From a virus: a stretch of 35,319 nucleotides of DNA. Positions 6,007 to 29,582 of the stretch are shown here, one piece after another. Below the pieces are notes generated by a model, which made no database searches, was not told the DNA's origin, and saw nothing but the letters and a program-made list of their open reading frames with translations. The translations under genes were made by a program, and so were the position numbers. Numbering within the stretch: the stretch's first letter is position 1; every line of letters starts with the position of its first letter. The stretch spans positions 1 through 35,319 of IMG/VR virus record IMGVR_UViG_3300032731_000141. The stretch is one strand, 5' to 3'.

Positions 6007-6777
6007 TTATTTTTTAGGTTTTTTAGTCTTAGGAGCAATAACTTTTTTTGATTTTTTGATTATTTTAGCCATATAATTATTAAAATAATTTGTCCAATTT
6101 TCTCTTTTAAAATTTGTTTTAGCGTGGCAATTAAAACATAAACTAATCAAATTATTTTCTTTGTTATTTTTTTTATTATAATCTATATGATGAATACATA
6201 AGCCATATTTCAAATCTTTCTGTTTGTGTCCACATTCTTGACAAGTATAATTATCTCTTTGTTTAATTTTTAATTTTAACCTCTTGTTAAATCCACAAGA
6301 ATATGGTTCAAAAGATATTCCACCTAACCAATTAGGATGATTTTTACCAGATATTTGGGGTCTTGGTTTTCCTTTTTGAGCTATACTTATTTTTCTTTTT
6401 ATTTCTTCAGGGCAAGGTTTTCTTTTTTGCCCTCTACTTGAAAGGATTTTTCCTTTATTTGCTTTACTTATTTTTCTTTTTGTTTCTTCACTCATTGCTC
6501 CTCTTTTTTTTCCCGTATTCCAAGGGAGGTGTCCTTTTTTAAAACTTGTTTTATTACCTCCTTTCATCGCTTCACTCATCTTTCTTTTAGTTTCTTCTGT
6601 AAATTTCTTTCCTTTATGGGCTACACTTAATTTTTCTCTTTCTTTTGGGTCTGCAAATCTCTTAAAATTTGCCTTACTTATTTTTTCTTTCCATTCTTGA
6701 GTTAATTTTTTTCCTTTATGAGCCTCGCTAATTTTTCTTTTGTGTTCTTTTGTTTGTTTATATTTTTTTTTAAACAT
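6007..6777 (-). CDS. HNH homing endonuclease with NUMOD3 repeats (free-standing)
   Basis: The 256-residue protein is very basic. Residues 1-145 contain at least six NUMOD3-type DNA-binding repeats ('KRKISEAHKGKK', 'KRKMSEAMKGG', 'KRKISKANKGK', 'KRKISIAQKGK'). A C-terminal HNH domain follows: 'CQECGHKQ', then 'IHHIDYNKKNNKENNLISLC', then 'CHAK'. It closely resembles the intron-encoded enzyme at 8223-8792. No group I intron core is visible beside it, so it appears to be a free-standing mobile gene between two structural genes. It ends in a Lys-rich tail 'KIIKKSKKVIAPKTKK'. Confidence 0.85.
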   Translation of the reverse strand: MFKKKYKQTKEHKRKISEAHKGKKLTQEWKEKISKANFKRFADPKEREKLSVAHKGKKFTEETKRKMSEAMKGGNKTSFKKGHLPWNTGKKRGAMSEETKRKISKANKGKILSSRGQKRKPCPEEIKRKISIAQKGKPRPQISGKNHPNWLGGISFEPYSCGFNKRLKLKIKQRDNYTCQECGHKQKDLKYGLCIHHIDYNKKNNKENNLISLCFNCHAKTNFKRENWTNYFNNYMAKIIKKSKKVIAPKTKKPKK

Positions 6778-8106: not shown

Positions 8107-8984
8107 CTTTATTGTTACTACCTCTTTTTGAGGCGGATATGTCATTTCTGCATATCTCTCTATGTCTCCATAGAGAACGGACTATCCCACAATCTACAAC
8201 ATTACTTGTTTAGATTTTCCGATTATAGTCTCTGAAGCTTCTCTTTAAAATAATTTGACCAATAATTACGATTTTTATTTACCTTAGCATTACAACTTCT
8301 GCACAAGGTTATAAGATTATGTTCATTACAATTATATTTATCATAATCAATGTGATGAACTCCTAATTTCTGAAAATAATCCTTTTCATTTACATTGCAT
8401 TTTTGACAGATAAATTTATCTCTTCGTCTTATTCTTAATTTTAATCTATTATTGAATTCACAAGTATATGGCTCAAAAGACCTACCATCTATCCAATTAC
8501 CAGCTTTATCTCTCAATCTTTTAGATGCTATTATCTTCATCTTTTCTCCCATACTTTTAGGCATTTTCTTGCCTTTATTCCAAGCAGTTTTGCCTTTTTG
8601 CCATTCACCCATTTTCGTTCTTGTTTCTGGAGAATTAAGATAACCTAATCTTTTTTTTCTTTCTAATCTTGATTTACTCATCTTTTCTCTTATCTCCTTT
8701 GAAAGTTTATGTCCCAATCCATTCTTATTTCCCATTAACTTTTTAGAGATTTTCTTTTTCTGTTCTTCTGACATCTTTTGATTTTTTTTCATATAAATAT
8801 ATTTTTTAATTATTATACTTATATTATACTGTATTTCTTGTGTTTTGTCAAATTATTTTAAAGAGCTTGCCTGCGGATTGTCTTTATTCTTTGAATTTTT
8901 ACTGCATCTATTTTTAGATACGAGTATCAAAGACCTAACAAGAGTTTCCCGCAATTTACGGAATTTTCAATTATGCTTTCGCAT
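8107..8984 (-). other. Group I intron 2 in the major capsid gene
   Basis: The leftward strand carries the group I core. Element P is at 8946-8956 (AATTGCGGGAA), Q at 8869-8879 (AATCCGCAGGC), R with the P7 5' strand around 8226-8236 and S at 8179-8188 (GGGATAGTCC). P3 pairs TTCCG with CGGAA. P8 is the hairpin at 8191-8216. Two hairpins follow P7, one with the loop CAGAAATGA shared with intron 1. The HNH ORF lies between Q and R, inside the P6 loop, and its stop codon falls in the R element. The 3' boundary is a G followed by exon 3. The 5' boundary (8984) is the least certain because no perfect U-G P1 was found. Confidence 0.8.
8223..8792 (-). CDS. Intron-encoded HNH homing endonuclease (intron 2)
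   Basis: The 189-residue basic protein has N-terminal NUMOD3-type repeats ('EEQKKKISKKLMGNKNG', 'KEIREKMSKSRLERKK', 'AWNKGKKMPKSMGEKMK'). A C-terminal HNH domain follows: 'CQKCNVNEKDY', 'VHHIDYDKYNCNEHNLITLC', 'CNAKVNKN'. It resembles the enzyme at 6007-6777. It lies in the P6 loop of intron 2; its last codons (LQRL and TAA) overlap the conserved R/P7 region of the ribozyme. It presumably cuts intronless capsid alleles to spread the intron. Confidence 0.85.
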   Translation of the reverse strand: MKKNQKMSEEQKKKISKKLMGNKNGLGHKLSKEIREKMSKSRLERKKRLGYLNSPETRTKMGEWQKGKTAWNKGKKMPKSMGEKMKIIASKRLRDKAGNWIDGRSFEPYTCEFNNRLKLRIRRRDKFICQKCNVNEKDYFQKLGVHHIDYDKYNCNEHNLITLCRSCNAKVNKNRNYWSNYFKEKLQRL

Positions 8985-9617: not shown

Positions 9618-10259
9618 CTATTCATACAAGTTTGACTTTAATTTTTTTGCTTTTTTTAAAATATATAATTTATGATATTTTGCGTGTTCTGATTGAGAAG
9701 AAAATAAATATAAATTTTTCAATCTGCTATCTTCCCTAATAAAATTTATATGATGAACAATTTCTTCTTTCTTTAAATATCTTTTAAGTTGGTTTTCAAC
9801 AACCAAACGATGCTCCATTACATAACCACGACTATTACAATTTGGATGTTCTGGCACATATATCCACGTATATCCTTTTTTACTTTTATATTTGCCACCC
9901 GTCCACCAAGGGCTATCTTCTCTTTTTCTTGGGTCTCCAACTTTACGTGGTGTAATGTTATATTCAATTATCCAACGATGAACAGTCTTGAAGTCTTCAT
10001 TTATTTCTTTTGCAATTTCTCTAAGAGATTTATTTTTTTTTGTGTATTCATTTATTAACCACTTTTTTGATTTCTTATCTCTACTCCCACCAAAACCTCT
10101 TTTTTTAATCTTTGCTTTTGCAAGCCATTGGTCAATTGTTTTTCTACTTGCACCGACAATGTCTGCAATAGCTCTACTTGGCAACTGTTCAATTATATAT
10201 TTTTGATATAACCACTCTTTAGAGCGGTATTTTTGTGAAACATTTAGTATTTTTGGCAT
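9618..10259 (-). CDS. Intron-encoded HNH_3-type homing endonuclease with HTH repeats (intron 1)
   Basis: The 213-residue protein has two N-terminal helix-turn-helix units: 'LPSRAIADIVGASRKTIDQW' (about 29-48) and 'KSLREIAKEINEDFKTVHRW' (about 76-95). An HNH_3-type nuclease domain follows: 'RGYVMEHRLVVENQLKRYL', 'EEIVHHINFIREDSRLKNL', 'HAKYHKLY'. This differs in family and DNA-binding domains from the intron 2 enzyme, so the two introns acquired endonucleases independently. It lies downstream of the complete ribozyme core, ending 10 nt before the 3' splice site. Confidence 0.85.
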   Translation of the reverse strand: MPKILNVSQKYRSKEWLYQKYIIEQLPSRAIADIVGASRKTIDQWLAKAKIKKRGFGGSRDKKSKKWLINEYTKKNKSLREIAKEINEDFKTVHRWIIEYNITPRKVGDPRKREDSPWWTGGKYKSKKGYTWIYVPEHPNCNSRGYVMEHRLVVENQLKRYLKKEEIVHHINFIREDSRLKNLYLFSSQSEHAKYHKLYILKKAKKLKSNLYE

Positions 10260-10384
10260 AATAGTTATTTAGTTATTATACCTTTATTCTACCAAATTTC
10301 CACATCTTTGTCAAACTTGTCAATGAACGATGTGGTCATTTCTGCCACATTCTGCATATTTCTATGCAGTCCAGACTATCCAAT

Positions 10385-10482
10385 AATCTACAACATTATT
10401 TGTTTAGATTCCCTGATTATAGTCGTTGAAGCTCCCCTTTCGGGTTTGCCTGCGGATTGTCTACAACATTACTTGTTTAGAT
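10385..10482 (-). repeat. Duplicated hairpin inside intron 1 (P5 and P8 arms)
   Basis: The hairpin with ends TCTAAACAAGTAATGTTGTAGA appears at 10460-10482 (between P and Q) and, with one base change, at 10385-10410 (P8). A third copy is the P8 arm of intron 2 at 8191-8216. Two non-homologous positions of the ribozyme therefore carry almost the same stem-loop. Confidence 0.7.
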
Positions 10483-10536
10483 GTTCCCGCAATTTACAGG
10501 GTTGCAACTAAGTATTTCTACCTAGTGATGCCGATT

Positions 10537-10823
10537 AACATATGTTTGGTAACTGCGAGCATTTTCCCAAATTCAACTTGGGTAAATGTCTGGTCAAATC
10601 CTTGAACAGGACTCTCTGCTATTACTGACGCATTTTGTGTTATACGCCCAGCAAGACCTAAGTCAGAGATATCTGTCTCTTTTAGGTAGTAATCGGTCAC
10701 ACCAGTTTCAACATTACAAATCTTATTGAAATTCTCTGGTTCTTTATTGTCCCAACTACCCCACGCCTTTTGGATTGCGACATCTACTAAATCTGCCGCA
10801 CTATTTAAATCCAATGGGATCAT
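10537..10823 (-). CDS. Major capsid protein, exon 1 (N-terminus)
   Basis: The exon starts at ATG 10823 (MIPLDLNSAADLVDVAIQKA), preceded in frame by a stop. It runs to the 5' splice site after 'EFGKMLAVTKHM'. Beyond it the frame reads only seven or so intron-encoded residues before a stop at 10518, as expected for an intron. Together with exons 2 and 3 it encodes a protein of about 335 residues, presumably the shell-forming subunit. An out-of-frame ATG (MLKEYD...) overlaps the start, part of the GATG leader pattern seen before several head genes. Confidence 0.75.
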
Positions 10824-16252: not shown

Positions 16253-17806
16253 TTAATAGTTTTTATTAGCAATTTTTAAATCTCCGTGAGTATCTTTTTT
16301 TATCTTATTATCAAAATGCTGTTCTGCTTCTGATTTTACAAAATCCTCTTGTTCTGCGTGAGGAGCATAAGCTATGTCGTCAATATAAGCCAGTGAATCT
16401 ATAAGATCATCATTCCTGCTTTTTGGAAATAATAAACACTGCTCAATTAGTTTATCTGTATGGTCAAAGCGTTGGTCTTTGTGCTTAAAATATATCTTAC
16501 CATATTGAAAGCGTGGGACTAACTTTCCCTTAATTCTATCTTCCTTTCTAACTCCTTTATCTTTTAACTCAATTACGTTCGGAAAGATACCTCTAACTTG
16601 CATTTCTTTTTCTATTAAAGGAGCAATAGTATCTTCATACGCCTTTTCTTCCACTCCGATCATAACTAGATTATAACTCTTGAAACCAGCCCAAATATCA
16701 AATAGTAATTCAATTCTTTCTGTAATGTTTAATTTGAGTTGTTTTGAATATATTATAAACCAATTAAATACTTCATCTACTCCTACAACCGTTATTCCAG
16801 TATAATCAGCTCCTTCGTTTTTACTCTTAGCATAATCAATTGCACAAAATGTAACAATCTTCTTTTCGTGTAATTCATTTAGCTTAAAATTGTTATTCAT
16901 CCACTCTTCTTTAAAATCCTGTAATTCTGTTGCGATTGGATGTTGTTGATATAAAGAACTCCAATTATATAATCCTTGACTCTCTTTAATCTGTTGTAAT
17001 TTTTCTAAATCAAATTTCCATTCCCATAATGCTTCTCCTTTTTTTCTATATTCTTCATCTTCTTCTGATATTGCCTTAAATTCTATAAGCTTACATCTAT
17101 CTTTAAAACCCTCATCTTCTAATAAGCGTCCAGCCAAATCATCTAAATGCCATCTTGTAAGGATAATAATAACGCTTGCATTCTTCTCTAAACGGGTGTA
17201 AGCGGTGGTTTTGAACCAATTCCAATGCTTATCTCTTATAACCTTACTATTAGCCTCTTCGCTGTTCTTGATTGGATCATCAACCACTAAGACATTCGCA
17301 CCACGTCCAGTAAGAGCTCCTCCAATACCAACAGAAGTATAACTTCCATTCTTTTCTGTCTGCCATTTTGCCTTTGCCTTTGCATCTACTCTTAAAGATA
17401 AATCAAATATCTCTTTATATGCTTCTCCAGATACTAAATCCCTTGTCTTCGTTCCAAAATCTTGAGCTAATTCACCTGAATAAGATGCTGTGATTACTTC
17501 TTTTGTTGGGTTTTTGCCTAAATACCAAGCAGGAAAATTGATTGTTGCAAGTTCTGATTTACCGTGCCTCGGAGGTAAGCATAAAATAGTTATTTCTTTC
17601 TCTCCTTCCCCTCTTTCTATCTTCTCTAATTCATTTGCAATCACCTCTAAATGAAAGTTTGACTTATAATTCGGATTGGTTGCTATGCAAAAGTCCAGTA
17701 GGTGTGTCCTCGCTCTTTGGTTCACCATCTGTATCTTCAACAACTCTTCGTGCGATTGTTCGGATTTGATTTTCGTCATAAATAGAAACTTTAATTGGTT
17801 CTCCAT
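16253..17806 (-). CDS. terL: Terminase large subunit
   Basis: The 517-residue packaging motor has a Walker A 'LPPRHGKSE' (about residues 77-85), 'ASYSGELAQDFG', 'GGALTGRGANVLVVDDPIKN' with Walker B, and coupling motif 'ILTRWHLDDLAGR'. The C-terminal RNase H-like nuclease includes 'FCAIDYAKSKNEGADYTGIT' and 'NDDLIDSLAY'. It cuts and pumps DNA into procapsids through the portal. The start is uncertain: ATG at 17806 has an SD-like GGAG but overlaps the upstream gene by 143 bp. An internal Met at 17728 ('MVNQRARTHLLDFC') matches the usual N-terminus of the family better. Confidence 0.95.
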   Translation of the reverse strand: MENQLKFLFMTKIKSEQSHEELLKIQMVNQRARTHLLDFCIATNPNYKSNFHLEVIANELEKIERGEGEKEITILCLPPRHGKSELATINFPAWYLGKNPTKEVITASYSGELAQDFGTKTRDLVSGEAYKEIFDLSLRVDAKAKAKWQTEKNGSYTSVGIGGALTGRGANVLVVDDPIKNSEEANSKVIRDKHWNWFKTTAYTRLEKNASVIIILTRWHLDDLAGRLLEDEGFKDRCKLIEFKAISEEDEEYRKKGEALWEWKFDLEKLQQIKESQGLYNWSSLYQQHPIATELQDFKEEWMNNNFKLNELHEKKIVTFCAIDYAKSKNEGADYTGITVVGVDEVFNWFIIYSKQLKLNITERIELLFDIWAGFKSYNLVMIGVEEKAYEDTIAPLIEKEMQVRGIFPNVIELKDKGVRKEDRIKGKLVPRFQYGKIYFKHKDQRFDHTDKLIEQCLLFPKSRNDDLIDSLAYIDDIAYAPHAEQEDFVKSEAEQHFDNKIKKDTHGDLKIANKNY

Positions 17807-18096: not shown

Positions 18097-18116
18097 TTTT
18101 GTTTTAAAACAAAATA
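18097..18116. repeat. 20-bp perfect AT-rich palindrome
   Basis: ATTTTGTTTT followed by its exact complement lies in the 100-bp gap upstream of the small terminase gene, next to a run of eight T. It could be an operator or a weak rightward terminator. There is no rightward gene it would serve. Confidence 0.35.
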
Positions 18117-18158
18117 TCTTTTTTTTAATCAATCACTTATAAGGCGTGAGGTAGGACA

Positions 18159-18464
18159 TTATTTAGTAATTATTTTAATAATTTTATACTTGAAATAATC
18201 CCACAAATTCATATTCATCTTCTTCTTTGTCCTTATACACCAAGCTATGAATAAGGAGTCCTTTGGTTTATCTATTAGCTGGGACTTTAAATATACTGAA
18301 ATTCTCTTATTGCGTAGGTCTTTGTTTATAAACTTTGCACTAGCTGAACATTCGTGTGTAAAGTTATTACTTTCACACAATAAACATTCTCCACCAACAC
18401 TAAAATGCTCTTTCTTCTTCAATGCTCTTCTAATTGATAGTGCTGTGATTAGAAATTTATACAT
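18159..18464 (-). CDS. Hypothetical Cys-containing protein downstream of tRNA-Tyr
   Basis: The 101-residue basic protein starts at ATG 18464. A longer frame would begin inside the tRNA (18491), so I reject that start. It has 'GGECLLCESNNFTHECSASA' (CxxC plus Cys), 'LRNKRISVYLKSQL' and 'LFIAWCIRTKKKMNMNLWDY'. No family is recognised. It lies 5 nt after the tRNA 3' end on the same strand and may be read from the same transcript. Confidence 0.5.
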   Translation of the reverse strand: MYKFLITALSIRRALKKKEHFSVGGECLLCESNNFTHECSASAKFINKDLRNKRISVYLKSQLIDKPKDSLFIAWCIRTKKKMNMNLWDYFKYKIIKIITK

Positions 18465-18469
18465 AAAGT

Positions 18470-18556
18470 TGGTGACGGTAGTAGGAATCAAACCTACCCA
18501 GCTATATTAGCAACAGTTTTACAGACTGCCTTGTGTTCATAACAATATATACCGCC
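18470..18556 (-). tRNA. tRNA-Tyr (GUA anticodon)
   Basis: The strand complementary to 18470-18556 folds as a class II tRNA. The acceptor pairs GGCGGTA/TACCGTC (one G-U), the D stem TTGT/ACAA, and the anticodon stem CAGT/ACTG with loop CTGTAAA (anticodon GTA). The long variable arm is GCTA-ATA-TAGC, and the T arm is GTAGG-TTTGATT-CCTAC. Discriminator A and an encoded CCA complete it. The long variable arm is normal for bacterial tRNA-Tyr. It sits just downstream of the large structured RNA. Confidence 0.95.
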
Positions 18557-19185
18557 TATAAGTCCCTACTTTAGGAACGGAGCGAATAAACGCCAATAGT
18601 TTGCTTAAATCATCACTTAGTCGGTAGAGGTTTGACTCTACAGCTTACACAGCATAGTTAGTGCTTTTTGCATTTACAGGGAGACCGACTCCCACACCTA
18701 TTACTAATAGGCATAATCGGCATAAGAGCTACTTAGTTAAGGTAGATTGTCACGGTTCACAGCCCGCCCACAACTAAGTGATAGTTTAAACAAACTTACA
18801 ATGCCCTCCGATGGCTAACAATTTCCTTCCTAGGGAGGTATGTACAGGGTCGTTAGACCACCATCGGAAAGCTAACCCCATCGACTAAGCACGTGTCTTC
18901 TTAGCAGGTAGGGCGTGATTAGTGCTTTACGTAAGCATTGTAAATTTGTTTAAATCCTTACGCTTCCAACCGAGTTTACTTTAGTTGTGGATATTATTTC
19001 GGAGGTAAACGTCCGTAACCACGCATATCGAGTAGCTGACCTTACTTGTAAACTACGACTTTCTCTTGTTGGAAGTGTAAAGATTCAATTTTGTTAGCAC
19101 GAGACACAAAAGATTTAATACCCACTGCTCACCTCGTGAGAAATGAGCGGAAAGACTTATGTCTGCATAAAGCAGGCGGAGGATA
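18557..19185 (-). ncRNA. Large ornate structured non-coding RNA upstream of tRNA-Tyr (GOLLD/ROOL-like candidate)
   Basis: About 630 nt without a plausible gene, GC-richer than the neighbours, fold into many exact helices on the leftward strand. A 20-bp helix joins 18954-18935 and 18804-18785 (one G-U). A 22-nt helix joins 18795-18774 and 18620-18599 (one mismatch). CTTCCAAC 19075-19068 pairs GTTGGAAG 18970-18963, enclosing AGTTTAC/GTAAACT. TCCGATGG pairs CCATCGGA, CTTAGTT pairs AACTAAG, and hairpins include GGGAG/CTCCC, CCTATT/AATAGG, GTAGAG/CTCTAC and CTCAC/GTGAG. RNase P, tmRNA and group I/II signatures are absent. Size, complexity and the adjacent tRNA resemble GOLLD and ROOL RNAs of phages; identity is unverified and the ends are approximate. 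Confidence 0.75.
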
Positions 19186-19368
19186 CTATTCTTTAGGATG
19201 TATATATAGTTCAGCTTCCTCGCTTTTATAATAGCTCTTACCACACTCTGGACAAGTAGGTGTTGAAGAGAATCTATAGTATGTTCCATCTCCCTCTACC
19301 CTCATACCCCACTTAGCTATTGGTACAAAGTCTCCTTCAAGTATACATTTCCTAGTTTCTTTAGTCAT
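19186..19368 (-). CDS. Small zinc-ribbon-like protein
   Basis: The 60-residue protein MTKETRKCILEGDFVPIAKW... has one clear knuckle, 'TCPECGKSYYKSEEAELYIH', with Cys-x2-Cys and a distal His. It starts 2 bp after the stop of the HExxH gene and is followed at once by the structured RNA. It is probably in the same transcript as both. Role unknown. Confidence 0.6.
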   Translation of the reverse strand: MTKETRKCILEGDFVPIAKWGMRVEGDGTYYRFSSTPTCPECGKSYYKSEEAELYIHPKE

Positions 19369-19370
19369 AC

Positions 19371-19652
19371 TTATATCAATTTATTATCCTTCAAAACTCC
19401 AAAGAGCTGACTACTTAGAGCATCAACAACAAGCTCTTCTGTTAGTTGTGCGTGCTGTAGACCTGAATTACAGAAGCAAGCGTGCATTATTTCGTGTAGT
19501 AATACTTTCTTCTGTTGGTCTTCTGATAACTCCTTAGAGATTATTATTAAATTCTTAGCAAGGTATATCTTACCTAAGAAACCATCTTCTCTTATCTCAT
19601 CACCTAACTGTATCTTATACTCCTCACCGCATATCTTTATTTTATCAAGCAT
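19371..19652 (-). CDS. ImmA/IrrE-like or SprT-like zinc metallopeptidase
   Basis: The 93-residue protein contains the zincin motif in 'KVLLHEIMHACFCNSG' (His52-Glu-x2-His56) with a downstream Glu in 'LTEELVVDALSSQLF' that may be the third ligand. This minimal layout occurs in small phage metallopeptidases of the IrrE/ImmA type. Family members often cleave repressors or serve as toxin-like enzymes, but this one has no fused HTH domain. It is the first full gene downstream of the promoter-leader-terminator cassette. Confidence 0.7.
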   Translation of the reverse strand: MLDKIKICGEEYKIQLGDEIREDGFLGKIYLAKNLIIISKELSEDQQKKVLLHEIMHACFCNSGLQHAQLTEELVVDALSSQLFGVLKDNKLI

Positions 19653-19745: not shown

Positions 19746-19775
19746 ATTATATAATACTATTTTCAAGAATGTCAA
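19746..19775 (-). promoter_or_regulatory. Strong sigma70-type promoter
   Basis: On the leftward strand TTGACA (19775-19770), an 18-bp spacer and TATAAT (19751-19746) match both consensus boxes. The predicted start is near 19739. It would drive the leader ORF, the terminator and, by read-through, the peptidase, the structured RNA and tRNA-Tyr. Confidence 0.75.
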
Positions 19776-20253: not shown

Positions 20254-20343
20254 TTAACATAGTTTTTGTTGCCTATTTTCTTCTTCTTTTTTCTCTTTCC
20301 AGTATTTTAGGCGGGCTTCGGCTACTTTAAGAAAGTCAGCGTT
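20254..20343 (-). pseudogene. C-terminal remnant of a DNA methyltransferase
   Basis: Directly after the endonuclease gene another frame reads NADFLKVAEARLKYWKEKKE and ends at TAA 20254. The motif '(D/E)F-x-(K/E)-(I/V)-A-x-A-R-(I/L)-x-x-W' is the usual C-terminus of phage-type DNA methyltransferases. It has no start codon of its own and matches the N-terminal remnant at 21162-21242, with the whole catalytic middle missing. Confidence 0.55.
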
Positions 20344-21124
20344 TATTATTTTTATTATAAACATCTTGTTCCCAAACTACTTTTACTTTATAACCAAGTG
20401 AAATAGCTTTTTTAATTTTGTTTTTATCATTTTCTAAATTCTTTATTTGTATAGGATATAATTTTTTATTTGCATAAACTCGTGGGTCGGCGTGCCAAAA
20501 TGTTCCATTAACTTCTATTAAAAGGTTTTCTTCTGGGATATAAAAATCAAATAAATATTTACTAACCCTATACTGTTGAACAAATTTTATATCTTTACTT
20601 TTTAAATATTCTGCATAAAGATTTTCTAACTTATTATACGCCTTTCCTGTTTTTCCTTCTTGAATTTGTTTGCAAGTAAGTAATGCGTGCTTATATCTAT
20701 TTTTTGGATTTAAAAATTGCCTCGTATTAGCTTCTCTTATTTTTTCAATAGCTTCTGGTGTATGTGTTCTACCAAACATTCCATTTTTTTCTCCAATTCT
20801 TGCTTTACCTTTTGATTTTATTCCACATCTTTTAATTATATTTCCAATTCCAGTTTGACTAAATCCTAAAATTTTAGAAATTTCTTCCTGAGTTTTATCT
20901 TGCTTGATATAAAGTTCAATAAGTTTTTCTTTCGTAATTTTATCACTTCCATTTGATAGTATTTGAGCAGTAGAAAAATCTCGTCTTGGAATATTTAATT
21001 TAATCATCCATCTTCTAATAGCAGGATAAGAAACATTAAACATTTTTGCTATTTCTGGAACTGTTTTATTTTGATTCCAATATAAATCTTTAATTTGATT
21101 AAGTTGTTTTTTTGTAAGTTTCAT
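20336..21124 (-). CDS. Vsr-like (EDxHD-type) homing endonuclease with HTH and NUMOD3
   Basis: The 262-residue protein has two N-terminal HTH units: 'KTVPEIAKMFNVSYPAIRRW' (about 19-38) and 'KTQEEISKILGFSQTGIGNI' (about 77-96). A NUMOD3-like segment 'GMFGRTHTPEAIEKIREAN' comes next. The C-terminal Vsr/PD-(D/E)XK-type nuclease has 'YLFDFYIPEENLLIEVNGTF', then 'WHADPRVYANKK', and 'GYKVKVVWEQDV'. This arrangement matches the EDxHD homing endonucleases related to very-short-patch repair nuclease. It lies between the two ends of a methyltransferase gene with almost no flanking non-coding DNA, so it is not in an intron. Confidence 0.8.
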   Translation of the reverse strand: MKLTKKQLNQIKDLYWNQNKTVPEIAKMFNVSYPAIRRWMIKLNIPRRDFSTAQILSNGSDKITKEKLIELYIKQDKTQEEISKILGFSQTGIGNIIKRCGIKSKGKARIGEKNGMFGRTHTPEAIEKIREANTRQFLNPKNRYKHALLTCKQIQEGKTGKAYNKLENLYAEYLKSKDIKFVQQYRVSKYLFDFYIPEENLLIEVNGTFWHADPRVYANKKLYPIQIKNLENDKNKIKKAISLGYKVKVVWEQDVYNKNNKR

Positions 21125-21932: not shown

Positions 21933-23806
21933 AATAAACTACCCTTTATTTGCTCATTTTCAGCCAAAAAATATCTCTTTTCATTGCTTCCTTGCCCCTT
22001 GCCTCCACTCTTCCTTGTAGACATAATTTTCTGTTCTTTTTCAAGATAAATAATGTTTTTATTTATAGTATCAAACTTACCAAAATCTTTAAGATGTTCT
22101 GCAATTTCTTTCTTTGTTTGATTTGTTTCCATTTGCAATTTAATTGTAATTGCATTACAAATTTCTTCACTTATACCAGACGAATCAATCTCACCTCTAT
22201 ATTTCCAATTAGTTAATTTAGTTACAGAATCATAAATAATATCAACACCAATTTTATTTATAAAATCAGGACGTCTTTTCTTTTCTTGTTGAATGGTCAT
22301 TTCAATCACACTTTTATCATTATCAAGTTTAGCAACAGAATTTACTAATAAATGACTACCAACCTTATTTATAAGCACAGTTGAACCTCTTGCAGATGCT
22401 TGACTAAATCCCTCACCATTTTGAGCCTTTCTGTGATGATGTAAATATAAAACTGTAACCTTTGTATCAACAATTAATTTAAGCATCAATTTAGTAATTT
22501 CACCCATATCCTTTGTTTTATTCTCATCTAATCCGTGAATTGTGCTAAAAGTATCTAAAATTAAAAAGCCAATATCATTCTTAATAATATATTTTTTAAG
22601 CCAAACATAATCACTTTCATTATCAATTTGCCAAAATTGTTCATACAAAAAGAAAATATCAGAACTATCTCCCTTAAAAATAGATTGAATTCTACCAATA
22701 ATTAAATCTTCATCCATTTCTTGGTCAATAATTAATACTCTTTTTTTCTTAGCACGATATTCTTCAAACAAAGCTCCACCAGTTGCAATTGCTTGTGCCA
22801 TTATTAAGGCAATCAATGATTTACCTCTTCCAGAATCAGCAGTTAAAGATGTAATCGCACCCTCTGGTATAAGACGATCAATCAAATAAGGAAACTCTTT
22901 TATCTCTTTTTTAGCTAAATCATCAAGTTTTATTACATCAAATAATTCTATTCTATTACTAAATTTACCAAAAAAATCATCAAATGTTCCATCTTTATCA
23001 AAAAAATCAGTAATATCTCCCTTTTCACCTATTTCATCTGGTAATATAATATTATAAATATCTGACTTTTCAACCTTTTCACACATCTTACATAAAGTTT
23101 CGGATTCTTTTCTACCATCATTATCTAAACAAATATAAATATTACGCTGTTTATTTAACTTATCAATAGGTAATTTACTTAAAGCACCCTTGCCAAATGG
23201 TAAAGAAATTGCAGGTATACCGTTTGTAAGCAACATAAGGCAGTCTAATTCACCTTCAGTTATTACTACTTTATCGTGATCAGTATTTAATATATCTCCA
23301 TTATAAAATGCACTTACTTCTTTTTGCTTCCCAGTAGGAAATACTCTAAAATCCTTTTTCCTTTCTGGAGTTGATTTACATTTTACATACATCCATTTAT
23401 CATTAACTTTATATGGAAATGTTATCCAACTTAAACCTTGCCTATCTATATATTCACCGATTTTAAAATCTGCAATTATCTCATCTGTAAGAAAGCGTTC
23501 TGTTTTAAGATATTCTCTTATTTTTGGAGATAAGTTTAAATGCCAGTTTTCTACTTGATTATCAAATCCTTTTGGCGGTTCAGGTTTCTTATAGACTATA
23601 CTTGTATCACCTTGTGCTTTTTTAAGAGTCAACAGATTACCTTTTTCTCCACACTTAAAACAATGAAAGAGTCCTTCATCCTTTGAAATATAAAAATGCC
23701 ATCCAGCATCTTGACAATACGGACAAATTTTTATCTTCCATTCCTTATTCTCAGGTTTATGTTCCCATCCTTTGGATTGTATATATTGTTGTATATCTTG
23801 ATTCAT
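21929..23806 (-). CDS. Primase-helicase (CHC2 zinc finger, TOPRIM, RecA-like ATPase)
   Basis: The 625-residue replication protein has an N-terminal primase zinc finger (Cys28, Cys31, Cys49, Cys52 in 'CPYCQDAG' and 'FHCFKCGEKGNLL'). A TOPRIM domain ('VVITEGELDCLMLL', 'ICLDNDGRKE') comes next. A RepA/DnaB-type RecA-like ATPase has Walker A in 'TSLTADSGRGKSLIALIMAQ', 'VLIIDQEMDE', Walker B 'IGFLILDTFSTIHGL' and 'VLYLHHHRKAQNGEGF'. A C-terminal winged-helix-like part ends it. It would prime and unwind phage DNA at the fork. It is the first gene of the leftward arm, with a long structured leader. Confidence 0.9.
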   Translation of the reverse strand: MNQDIQQYIQSKGWEHKPENKEWKIKICPYCQDAGWHFYISKDEGLFHCFKCGEKGNLLTLKKAQGDTSIVYKKPEPPKGFDNQVENWHLNLSPKIREYLKTERFLTDEIIADFKIGEYIDRQGLSWITFPYKVNDKWMYVKCKSTPERKKDFRVFPTGKQKEVSAFYNGDILNTDHDKVVITEGELDCLMLLTNGIPAISLPFGKGALSKLPIDKLNKQRNIYICLDNDGRKESETLCKMCEKVEKSDIYNIILPDEIGEKGDITDFFDKDGTFDDFFGKFSNRIELFDVIKLDDLAKKEIKEFPYLIDRLIPEGAITSLTADSGRGKSLIALIMAQAIATGGALFEEYRAKKKRVLIIDQEMDEDLIIGRIQSIFKGDSSDIFFLYEQFWQIDNESDYVWLKKYIIKNDIGFLILDTFSTIHGLDENKTKDMGEITKLMLKLIVDTKVTVLYLHHHRKAQNGEGFSQASARGSTVLINKVGSHLLVNSVAKLDNDKSVIEMTIQQEKKRRPDFINKIGVDIIYDSVTKLTNWKYRGEIDSSGISEEICNAITIKLQMETNQTKKEIAEHLKDFGKFDTINKNIIYLEKEQKIMSTRKSGGKGQGSNEKRYFLAENEQIKGSLL

Positions 23807-23815
23807 ATGTTTTTA

Positions 23816-23912
23816 ACAATTAAAAAACTCTTACAGGGCATTACATCCGCTTCTGGCTCGTAAAAACCAGTCCATGCTTGGAAGATATAATGCCGTATAA
23901 GAGTTTAATTGT
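23816..23912. promoter_or_regulatory. Long imperfect hairpin in the leader of the primase-helicase gene
   Basis: ACAATTAAA, ACTCTTA and GGCATTA on the left arm pair with TAATGCC, TAAGAGT and TTAATTGT on the right, with small bulges. CTGG and CCAG form an inner hairpin. The 97-nt element ends just before the primase-helicase ATG on the leftward transcript and lies downstream of the leftward promoter. It may be a regulatory leader, a transcription attenuator or a DNA cruciform. Confidence 0.55.
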
Positions 23913-23937
23913 TTACGATTTTTAAGCATATACATTT

Positions 23938-23966
23938 ATAATAACATATTTTTAAAATCATAACAA
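23938..23966 (-). promoter_or_regulatory. Leftward sigma70-type promoter of the replication/late arm
   Basis: On the leftward strand TTGTTA (23966-23961), a 17-bp spacer and TATTAT (23943-23938) form a good promoter about 130 bp before the primase-helicase start. Its -35 box is 26 bp from that of the rightward promoter. Confidence 0.5.
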
Positions 23967-23992
23967 GTGTATAACTATTTGCACTAAAGTTG

Positions 23993-24021
23993 TTGACTTA
24001 TTTTTAGATATGTGTTATGCT
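23993..24021 (+). promoter_or_regulatory. Rightward sigma70-type promoter of the early arm
   Basis: TTGACT (23993-23998), 17 bp, TATGCT (24016-24021). Transcription would start near 24028, two bases before the ATG at 24030, so the first mRNA may be leaderless. The sequence TTGACTTATT is repeated in the promoter at 24243. Confidence 0.65.
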
Positions 24022-24029
24022 TATTATAT

Positions 24030-24227
24030 ATGAAAGAATCAAGAACAACAGGACAATTATTAAAAAGAAGAATAAACCTAGCTTTATGGCTTTATTATGA
24101 AGAAGAATATAATATGATAGAAATATCTAAAATTCTAAATTGGGATAAAAGCCAAATATCAAGAGCTATAAATAATTGGAAAGGATTATCAGAAAGTATT
24201 AAAGTTGTGGATAACTCTTCAAAATAA
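24030..24227 (+). CDS. Small helix-turn-helix DNA-binding protein
   Basis: The 65-residue basic protein has an HTH like sigma-factor region 4 or resolvase recognition helices: 'YYEEEYNMIEISKILNWDKS' then 'QISRAINNW' (about residues 22-50). I choose ATG 24030; a GTG at 24012 would lie upstream of the predicted transcription start. As first gene of the rightward arm beside a divergent promoter pair it is a candidate early regulator or repressor. The C-terminus is short and polar. Confidence 0.6.
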   Translation: MKESRTTGQLLKRRINLALWLYYEEEYNMIEISKILNWDKSQISRAINNWKGLSESIKVVDNSSK

Positions 24228-24242
24228 AGCTAAAAAAAGCAC

Positions 24243-24271
24243 TTGACTTATTCTGGTGGATGTGGTAATAT
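24243..24271 (+). promoter_or_regulatory. Sigma70-type promoter for the structured RNA
   Basis: TTGACT (24243-24248), 17 bp, TAATAT (24266-24271), with predicted start near 24278. It lies just after the HTH gene and upstream of a structured 200-nt stretch. Confidence 0.65.
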
Positions 24272-24277
24272 GTAGTT

Positions 24278-24475
24278 AGGAGGTAAAAACAAAAGATTAA
24301 CTCGTCAAAAGTAATTTTCGGAAATAACGACAATGTCGTCAAAAGTAATTGTAAAAATTATTTCTAAAAATTTACTATGACGAGCTAAACAAAGCTTGTT
24401 ATTTTTTTATAGTAAAACGGGAAAAGATGCGGAGATTTGGAGAAATCCAAAAAAACTTTTGACGAGGTCTCCGCT
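24278..24475 (+). ncRNA. Structured RNA or switch-like leader with repeats
   Basis: Two copies of CGTCAAAAGTAATT lie at 24303-24316 and 24337-24350. CTCGTCAAAAG (24301-24311) can pair either with TGACGAG (24378-24384) or with CTTTTGACGAG (24456-24466). The latter lies inside a second hairpin closed by GCGGAGA/TCTCCGC (24429-24435/24468-24474), which also holds TTTGGA-GAAA-TCCAAA. AACAA-AGC-TTGTT followed by seven T (24388-24407) may be a terminator between the alternatives. This could be a small RNA or a leader of the gene at 24496. Confidence 0.6.
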
Positions 24476-24495
24476 TCTTAACCCTTATAAGTTCT

Positions 24496-25011
24496 ATGCC
24501 AAAAAAATTAGATTTAGTTGGGCAAAAATTTAATAGATTAAAAATAATTAAATTTGCTTATATGAAAAATACAAGAAGTTATTGGTTATGTAAGTGTGAA
24601 TGTGGAAATGAGAAAGTTATTTGTGGAACATATATTAAACAAAATCGAATAAAAAGTTGTGGATGCTCAAAAAAACTTCTAGTGGGTAAAAAAAATGTTT
24701 TATACAGGCACGGAATGTATAAAACAAGATTTTACAGAATATGGAAGGGAATAAAAGATAGATGCTTAAACTATAACTGTAAAGATTTTAAATACTATGG
24801 AGCAAGAAACATTAAGTGTTTATGGAAATCTTTTGAGAATTTTAGAGATGATATGTTAATTTCTTATCTTATTCACTGTGAAGAATTTGGAATAAAACAA
24901 ACTACAATAGATAGAATAAATAATGATGGAAATTATTGTAAAAAAAATTGTAGATGGGCTACAAGACAAGAACAATCTAATAATAAACGAAAAAAACTAA
25001 AAAATAAATAA
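24496..25011 (+). CDS. Mobile endonuclease-like protein (zinc ribbon plus 'IDRINNDGNY' domain)
   Basis: The 171-residue basic protein has a zinc ribbon 'WLCKCECGNEKVICGTYIKQ' with a later 'KSCGCSK', then 'YRIWKGIKDRCLNYNCKDFK'. 'YYGARNIKCLWKSFENFRDD' and 'TIDRINNDGNYCKKNCRWAT', followed by 'EQSNNKR', complete it. This combination is common in phages and is often annotated as HNH- or AP2-like mobile DNA-binding/endonuclease protein. It is preceded by the structured RNA, but no group I core is visible there. Confidence 0.65.
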   Translation: MPKKLDLVGQKFNRLKIIKFAYMKNTRSYWLCKCECGNEKVICGTYIKQNRIKSCGCSKKLLVGKKNVLYRHGMYKTRFYRIWKGIKDRCLNYNCKDFKYYGARNIKCLWKSFENFRDDMLISYLIHCEEFGIKQTTIDRINNDGNYCKKNCRWATRQEQSNNKRKKLKNK

Positions 25012-28457: not shown

Positions 28458-29078
28458 ATGTATTCATACAGCTCCCTATCTCTCTACAAAACCTGTCCTT
28501 ATAAATACTTCAAAAAATACTTTACAAAAGAAGTAGAGCCAGCCAGCCCAAGTATGCAAAAAGGTATAGATTTTCACAAGTTAATTGCAATGAAGAATAT
28601 TGATTTAGTTGCAGATCTATATGACCCAGAAATTATTAAAGCCGTGAGGATGTTAAAAGAAACAGAAGAATATAAATCACTTAAAATAATAAAGACCGAA
28701 GCTAAAATCCGACAAGAGGTTGATGGACATAACTTTTTTGCAATAATTGATTGTTTGGCTAAAACAAAAGATGGAAAAGATTTGATTATTGACTGGAAAT
28801 ACACAAAAGGAAATTGGACAGAAGAAAATGAAGAACAATATGCAATCCAAAAAGCATTGTATAAAAAAATCACAGGAATTACTGAATTTTGGTTCGTAAA
28901 TATCACAAAACACAAAACTCCAAGAATTGAATTTTTAAAAGATAGTAAAGAAATGGAATGGTCAGAAGTTTTAAACCTTATAAAGAAACTCAATGGCGAT
29001 TTTCATTATATTCCCAAAGATTCTAATTCTTGTTTCTGGTGTTGTTGGAAACAAAAAGACTGTTCACTATATTTTTAA
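28458..29078 (+). CDS. Cas4/RecB-like PD-(D/E)XK nuclease with Fe-S cysteines
   Basis: The 206-residue nuclease has the family start 'YSSLSLYKTCPYKYFKKYF' (Cys13) and 'KGIDFHKLIAMKN'. The core is 'FFAIIDCLAKTKDGKDLIID' then 'WKYTKG' (Asp and Asp-x-Lys), followed by 'EEQYAIQKALYKKITGI' motif. Three C-terminal Cys lie in 'SCFWCCWKQKDCSLYF'. One N-terminal and three C-terminal cysteines indicate a 4Fe-4S cluster as in Cas4 and AddB. It probably resects DNA ends for recombination with the ATPase at 26426 and the SSB-like protein at 29136. No CRISPR array is present, so a phage recombination role is favoured. Confidence 0.85.
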   Translation: MYSYSSLSLYKTCPYKYFKKYFTKEVEPASPSMQKGIDFHKLIAMKNIDLVADLYDPEIIKAVRMLKETEEYKSLKIIKTEAKIRQEVDGHNFFAIIDCLAKTKDGKDLIIDWKYTKGNWTEENEEQYAIQKALYKKITGITEFWFVNITKHKTPRIEFLKDSKEMEWSEVLNLIKKLNGDFHYIPKDSNSCFWCCWKQKDCSLYF

Positions 29079-29135
29079 ACAAAAAATAAACTAACAGCTA
29101 TATCCGAAACAAATAAGGATAAAGCAAAAAAACGT

Positions 29136-29582
29136 ATGTCAGACATAATGACACCAGAAGCAAAAGAACATTTGGATATGCCAGATGATTCTTCTGCACT
29201 AAAGTTTCTCAAGAATGAACATTTTCTTGGAGAAGGATTACAATTAAGTTTATTAAAATCAGTTGAGAGAATAAAAGGAACTTTCAAGAATGAAAAGACT
29301 GGAGAATTTCCAAATGCTTTACTCTTTACATTCATAAATGCACAAGGCGTTGAGCAGACCTACGAAAATCAATCTAAAAATGGGAAGAGATTATTGAAAG
29401 CAATGGTAGAGGCTCATATACAATTAAATGAAGCTATGCTAATCAAATCAGAACAGATTGATGATTATAATTGGAGTTTTGCAGTCACAAAAGGAGTCCA
29501 ACCAACTCAAACACCAACAACCCAACCAACCCAAACTCCAGAACCAAGCACTCCAGTAAATCCAGATCAAGTTCCTTTTTAA
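29136..29582 (+). CDS. SSB-like single-strand DNA-binding protein
   Basis: The 148-residue protein has an N-terminal globular domain ('ALKFLKNEHFLGEGLQLSLL', 'RIKGTFKNEKTGEFPNALLF', 'YENQSKNGKRLLKAMVE'). A Thr/Pro/Gln-rich disordered linker and the terminal 'NPDQVPF' follow. A flexible linker ending in an acidic/aromatic tip is the interaction tail of SSB-type proteins. The N-domain does not show an obvious OB-fold motif by eye. It follows the Cas4-like gene in a recombination cluster. Confidence 0.6.
   Translation: MSDIMTPEAKEHLDMPDDSSALKFLKNEHFLGEGLQLSLLKSVERIKGTFKNEKTGEFPNALLFTFINAQGVEQTYENQSKNGKRLLKAMVEAHIQLNEAMLIKSEQIDDYNWSFAVTKGVQPTQTPTTQPTQTPEPSTPVNPDQVPF

Follow-up and report, generated by a model that had tools for sequence, protein, structure and literature searches.

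A stretch of about 630 nt on the minus strand of a viral genome was found that most likely represents a real and functional large structured non-coding RNA of the phage, a reading held with moderate confidence; no relative of the RNA was detected, and we infer that it is processed. The window was the whole record of this virus (IMGVR_UViG_3300032731_000141; 35,319 bases). The fold of the stretch was non-random, its coding content was scant, it abutted a tRNA-like gene exactly, the genes around it lay on the same strand, and no known RNA family was matched. The features are collected in Table 1.

Table 1. Coordinates of the candidate RNA, its helices and neighbouring or related features in the window
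Feature	Position	Strand	Basis or remark
Candidate large structured non-coding RNA	18557..19185	minus	fold z -5.2 to -6, no long frame, raised GC
Helix I3, 5' arm	19068..19088	minus	pairs with 18950-18970; 21 nt
Helix I3, 3' arm	18950..18970	minus	pairs with 19068-19088
Helix I2, 5' arm	18935..18954	minus	pairs with 18785-18804; 20 nt, 95% complementary
Helix I2, 3' arm	18785..18804	minus	shares 12 nt with I1 5' arm
Helix I1, 5' arm	18773..18796	minus	pairs with 18598-18621; 24 nt, 88% complementary
Helix I1, 3' arm	18598..18621	minus	pairs with 18773-18796
Apical hairpin domain, closing 13-bp helix GCUUUCCGAUGGU/GCCAUCGGAGGGC	18803..18872	minus	RNA 314-326/371-383
AAAGCACUAA, first copy of 10-nt direct repeat	18919..18928	minus	repeat search
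AAAGCACUAA, second copy of 10-nt direct repeat	18658..18667	minus	repeat search
Class II tRNA-Tyr(GUA)-like gene, CCA encoded	18470..18556	minus	RF00005 + MFE cloverleaf
Terminase large subunit (terL)	16253..17806	minus	phrog_38, E 9e-99; downstream of RNA
60-aa protein with CPECG motif	19186-19368	minus	directly upstream of candidate RNA
M78-like small protein	19371-19652	minus	upstream of candidate RNA
Consensus sigma-70 promoter, TTGACA-18-TATAAT, 12/12	19746..19775	minus	consensus match alone; upstream of small genes and RNA
Group I intron	10352-10547	minus	RF00028, 69.2 bits, E 8e-18

Folding statistics and coding content

The minus strand of 18557-19185 (629 nt) had a minimum free energy (MFE) of -192.6 kcal/mol, while 100 dinucleotide shuffles gave -159.4 +/- 6.4 (z -5.2). 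The lowest of the shuffles was -172.4, and none reached the native value. For a longer segment (18500-19200, 701 nt) z was -6.0. The sequence-only reading had placed a strongly folding stretch at precisely these coordinates, and they were correct. It had also assigned the folding to the leftward strand; the z of -5.2 agrees with this, but the plus strand folded almost equally well (z -4.95), so that energy alone proves neither an RNA nor its strand. Comparably striking folds were present at other spots of the phage in 400-nt windows, one of them being the verified group I intron. Strong folds also occurred at 23601-24600 and 28801-29400, of which one spans a divergent-operon junction and the other overlaps coding genes.

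All frames of the stretch contain stops, and the longest stop-free run inside it was 47 codons. The region had been described as gene-free and is gene-poor; a 78-aa ORF (19053-19289) enters and overlaps its 5' end. The G+C content was 42%, whereas the window as a whole has 32%; a raised G+C content is common for structured RNAs within AT-rich genomes. Direct repeats were nearly absent. The start of the tRNA would put the 3' end of the RNA at 18557, while the 5' end, near 19185-19220, is not fixed. The proposal of a putative large structured RNA is supported by the folding statistics, by the scant coding and by a tRNA that abuts the stretch exactly.

Long-range helices

Fourteen helices of at least 9 bp were counted on the minus strand, whereas 50 mononucleotide shuffles had a median of about 4 such helices and never more than 10. 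At least ten exact helices had been claimed; the long arms are not fully exact, as they carry seven G.U and two C.A positions. I1, I2 and I3 form a chain of three long inverted repeats in which adjacent helices share a strand. Their lengths (24, 20 to 22 and 21 nt, respectively) agree with the claim of long-range helices of 20 to 22 bp, but with overlaps of 5 nt between I2 and I3 and of 12 nt between I1 and I2, the three cannot all be complete at once.

Probabilities in the thermodynamic ensemble were near 1.0 for I1 and I3 and at most 0.33 for I2. Except for one C.A position in each, pair probabilities were 0.8-1.0 in I1 and 0.7-1.0 in I3. Helix I2 reaches 22 pairs when G.U is counted and is then the longest uninterrupted helix. 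The 13-bp helix closing the apical hairpin was mostly present in the MFE structure. I2 may conflict with I1 and I3 because the RNA switches between them, because one of the folds is a kinetic alternative or because one strand is free to pair with another copy; the data do not choose among these.

Seven of the nine non-Watson-Crick positions in I1-I3 were G.U on the minus strand, as opposed to two of nine on the plus strand, and positions of any other kind than G.U and C.A did not occur. These counts, small as they are, lean towards the minus strand.

The near-equal folding of both strands makes a DNA-level element the main rival explanation. The long inverted repeats would then make up a pac/cos or replication site upstream of the terminase genes, with the RNA fold as a by-product. 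The position about 750 nt upstream of terL fits such a site, and several phages with related terminases (L021, L023, L062 and L079) carry long, repeat-rich non-coding regions upstream of terL, with strong folds on both strands. However, the regions of the relatives that were read were mostly AT-rich or made of recurring motifs, whereas 18557-19185 is raised in GC and nearly free of direct repeats. The end of the stretch at the start of the tRNA and the ratio of 7 to 2 for the minus-strand RNA at the non-Watson-Crick positions also speak against it. We consider a DNA-level element unlikely, if worth serious weighing, and prefer the reading as an RNA.

Comparison with known RNA families

When 18100-19400 was searched with cmscan against Rfam, tRNA was the only significant family. 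A match to another RNA class had been named beforehand as grounds against the proposal; the sole further match up to E 10 in this segment was SAM-V with 18.2 bits, far from its cut-off of 41. The ROOL (RF03087) and GOLLD (RF02032, conserved 3' region) models, which the sequence-only reading had suggested for a search, were run on the 1.3-kb segment with cmscan and on the whole record. Neither matched at E<=10, with eight candidates scored for GOLLD in the whole record and with a ROOL search that had no positive control. The claim that the RNA is a member or relative of the GOLLD/ROOL class was thus not upheld. HEARO (RF02033; no control above the cut-off) and OLE (search without a positive control) had no match at E<=10 in the whole record, and the group II D1D4-1 model had none either. 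RF00028 matched the genome only at the intron listed in Table 1 and not in 18100-19400.

Cmscan of longer stretches missed this real group I intron, which was found by a 301-base scan and by the genome route (69 bits). Empty scans of long stretches are therefore weak.

ROOL env-120 has 659 nt and GOLLD often more than 800 nt, and both occur near tRNAs (PMC12286853). The candidate resembles ROOL in size (574-position model), in its phage or prophage origin, in the tRNA neighbourhood frequent in that family and in its many long-range helices (PMC12286853). It differs in having neither a sequence nor a structure match to RF03087 at E<=10. ROOL is a pseudoknotted, covarying multi-helix fold that forms a homo-octameric nanocage. 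With GOLLD it shares the character of a large structured phage RNA near tRNAs, and some GOLLD members have a tRNA inside or adjoining (PMC12286853), but RF02032 gave no match at E<=10 and the candidate is shorter than many GOLLD RNAs. Judged by kind, as a large structured non-coding phage stretch of 629 nt with a tRNA-Tyr-like gene abutting, it appears GOLLD/ROOL-like.

A ROOL or GOLLD member too diverged for the Rfam models to reach would show the comparable length and tRNA neighbourhood (PMC12286853) and the elaborate long-range pairing seen here, and covariance scans can overlook true members, as happened with the group I intron. Matches at E<=10 were nevertheless missing by two routes, the second of which did recover that intron, and we find such membership clearly doubtful. 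The candidate is better treated as an orphan RNA for which, by analogy, GOLLD and ROOL are the right comparison in size and tRNA setting; it is not a demonstrated member.

Two further systems were compared. The pRNA of phage phi29 is about 170 nt long and part of the phi29-type motor, and its copies form a ring on the packaging motor. Work on this ring is cited in PMC12286853. The candidate shares the phage origin with pRNA and is located upstream of terminase genes, but this terminase is of the phrog_38 type and the only significant Rfam match is the tRNA. Group I introns (RF00028) are likewise structured phage RNAs, with one verified elsewhere in the same phage, but RF00028 did not match a catalytic core in 18557-19185.

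The adjoining tRNA-Tyr-like gene

The tRNA-Tyr reported just downstream of the stretch was confirmed. RF00005 matched at 18473-18556 in the 1.3-kb cmscan (33 bits, E 1e-4, gathering 29), and the tRNA begins at the very base next to the end of the structured stretch (18556/18557). The 87 nt including CCA folded alone (MFE) as a cloverleaf with a GUA anticodon loop and a 4-bp variable arm; cloverleaf, GUA anticodon, long variable arm and CCA end are thus all as in a tRNA-Tyr. The conserved G18G19 and C56 of the elbow were absent, the D-loop reading UAUGAAC without GG and the T-loop UUUGAUU without C56 (both read by eye). The gene was missed by the whole-window Rfam scan, which the shorter cmscan made good, and, probably because of these two loops, by ARAGORN.

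GG of the D-loop and C56 of the T-loop both belong to the tRNA elbow, and their losses go together. The joint loss suggests that the gene may be a reduced tRNA that has been retained for processing. An 11-nt complementarity of the T-arm of the tRNA to the RNA (I4) was rejected as a pairing, as the longest tRNA/RNA duplex was equalled in 124 of 300 shuffles.

Gene setting

The neighbouring genes lie on the minus strand, in the same direction as the candidate RNA. Past the CCA of the tRNA a 101-aa ORF begins within a few bases and is followed by a 130-aa ORF, terL and a portal-like protein; the distance from the RNA to terL is about 750 nt. A second promoter candidate (9/12) was located at 19228-19255. 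No terminator was found.

The same-strand gene string, the strong promoter-like site upstream (19775-19746) and the competition among I1, I2 and I3 would also suit a long structured, attenuator-like leader of the late operon, or a spacer serving its processing, with no function as a free RNA of its own. The size is far above that of known attenuators, however, a terminator-like hairpin was not found, and the element that follows is the tRNA and not directly an ORF, which makes a leader or spacer quite improbable.

Homologues and host

The collection of homologues yielded only two further IMG/VR contigs of the same virus (L002 and L003), which are identical over 18473-19185 and hence over the RNA. 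In blastn searches the phage records matched the tRNA only and the plasmid records contained no homologue of the RNA. Pattern scans of IMG/VR and genomes returned only contigs of the same virus, chance matches aside. An nhmmer search of about 160 loci with related terminases detected no homologue, nor did that of some 750 sampled genomes; none of 47 loci and 362 genomes matched a covariance model made from the I3 domain.

Several candidates were rejected. A two-motif pattern occurred at 22 other loci, none of them homologous to the candidate RNA. The matches in L202 and L126 lay inside coding genes, L204 and L205 had only an 18-nt pattern in common with the RNA, and in L181 the similarity was confined to an AT-rich repeat array. 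In MW202426 (L008), the seemingly empty region upstream of terL contains unannotated ORFs.

The best terminase relatives were 44-49% identical and shared no other gene with the phage except for an HNH endonuclease match in L013. By terminase and gene sharing the phage is isolated, which accounts for the missing RNA homologues and is neutral on function. In genomes, the closest terminases came from an Ignavibacteriae MAG (49%), a Pacearchaeota bin (43%) and a Paceibacterota bin (39%). Of 380 genomes of the phylum to which the Paceibacterota bin belongs, two had a chromosomal tRNA-Tyr gene that the tRNA half-matched, both of them ordinary tRNA genes; for the Ignavibacteriae bin, 375 genomes of its phylum gave no match. 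The half-matches lean weakly towards a possible host among the Patescibacteria.

Other RNAs and mobile elements

On the minus strand, the 106 nt at 8141-8246 share 76% identity with 10335-10440, the core of the group I intron, and the element TTCCCGCAATTTAC at 8941-8959 is also shared with this intron. The two flank an HNH gene (8223-8792), around which a second, ORF-bearing group I intron is probably present. At least four HNH or homing-endonuclease-like genes were counted in the 35-kb record (6007-6777, 8223-8792, 9618-10259 and 20336-21124). A degenerate or unusual mobile intron or ribozyme at 18557-19185 would suit a phage with a group I intron and several HNH genes, but with RF00028 matching at 10352 only, the HEARO and group II D1D4-1 models unmatched and an interrupted gene flanking the RNA not seen, this explanation is extremely unlikely.

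In the prophage-like contig L181 (IMGVR 2703719226) a strongly folding non-coding stretch of about 700 nt (930-1640; z -4.4) has an integrase on one side and more phage genes on the other. It had no credible Rfam match, is followed by an array of AT-rich repeats of about 60 nt with AAAGCACTAATATATGAG, and is possibly another uncatalogued large phage RNA. L062 carried a structured non-coding stretch of about 290 nt (635-920; z -3.2) with a helix of the 20-bp class. It lies about 1.3 kb upstream of a related terminase and showed no similarity to the candidate RNA.

Proposed maturation and significance

If 18557-19185 encodes a functional RNA, its transcription, processing and any assembly may be pictured as follows. 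Minus-strand transcription within an operon running into the terminase and portal genes would produce the RNA together with the tRNA-like element. The exact abutment of the two suggests a simple maturation route: a cut by host RNase P at the 5' end of the tRNA would free the RNA with a defined 3' end, and as this cut would set that end, the tRNA may be, wholly or in part, a signal for processing. The RNA would fold into long-range helical domains, and the strand at 18773-18804, having two possible partners, could act as a switch between conformations or join one copy of the RNA to another. If it behaved like GOLLD and ROOL, the RNA would, speculatively, accumulate as a stable free molecule late in infection and serve as an assembled scaffold. 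That it represents a third family of large self-assembling phage RNAs, independent of these two, with domain swapping through I1, I2 and I3, release by RNase P and a role in or near packaging, is conceivable but very improbable.

The RNA stands as a strong candidate rather than a discovery. It is an open question whether cages of RNA alone, recently shown for GOLLD and ROOL and of unknown function, are also built by other large natural RNAs (PMC12286853). An unrelated large RNA of the same size and tRNA setting, from an uncultured lineage, would be a fresh test case for RNA cages.
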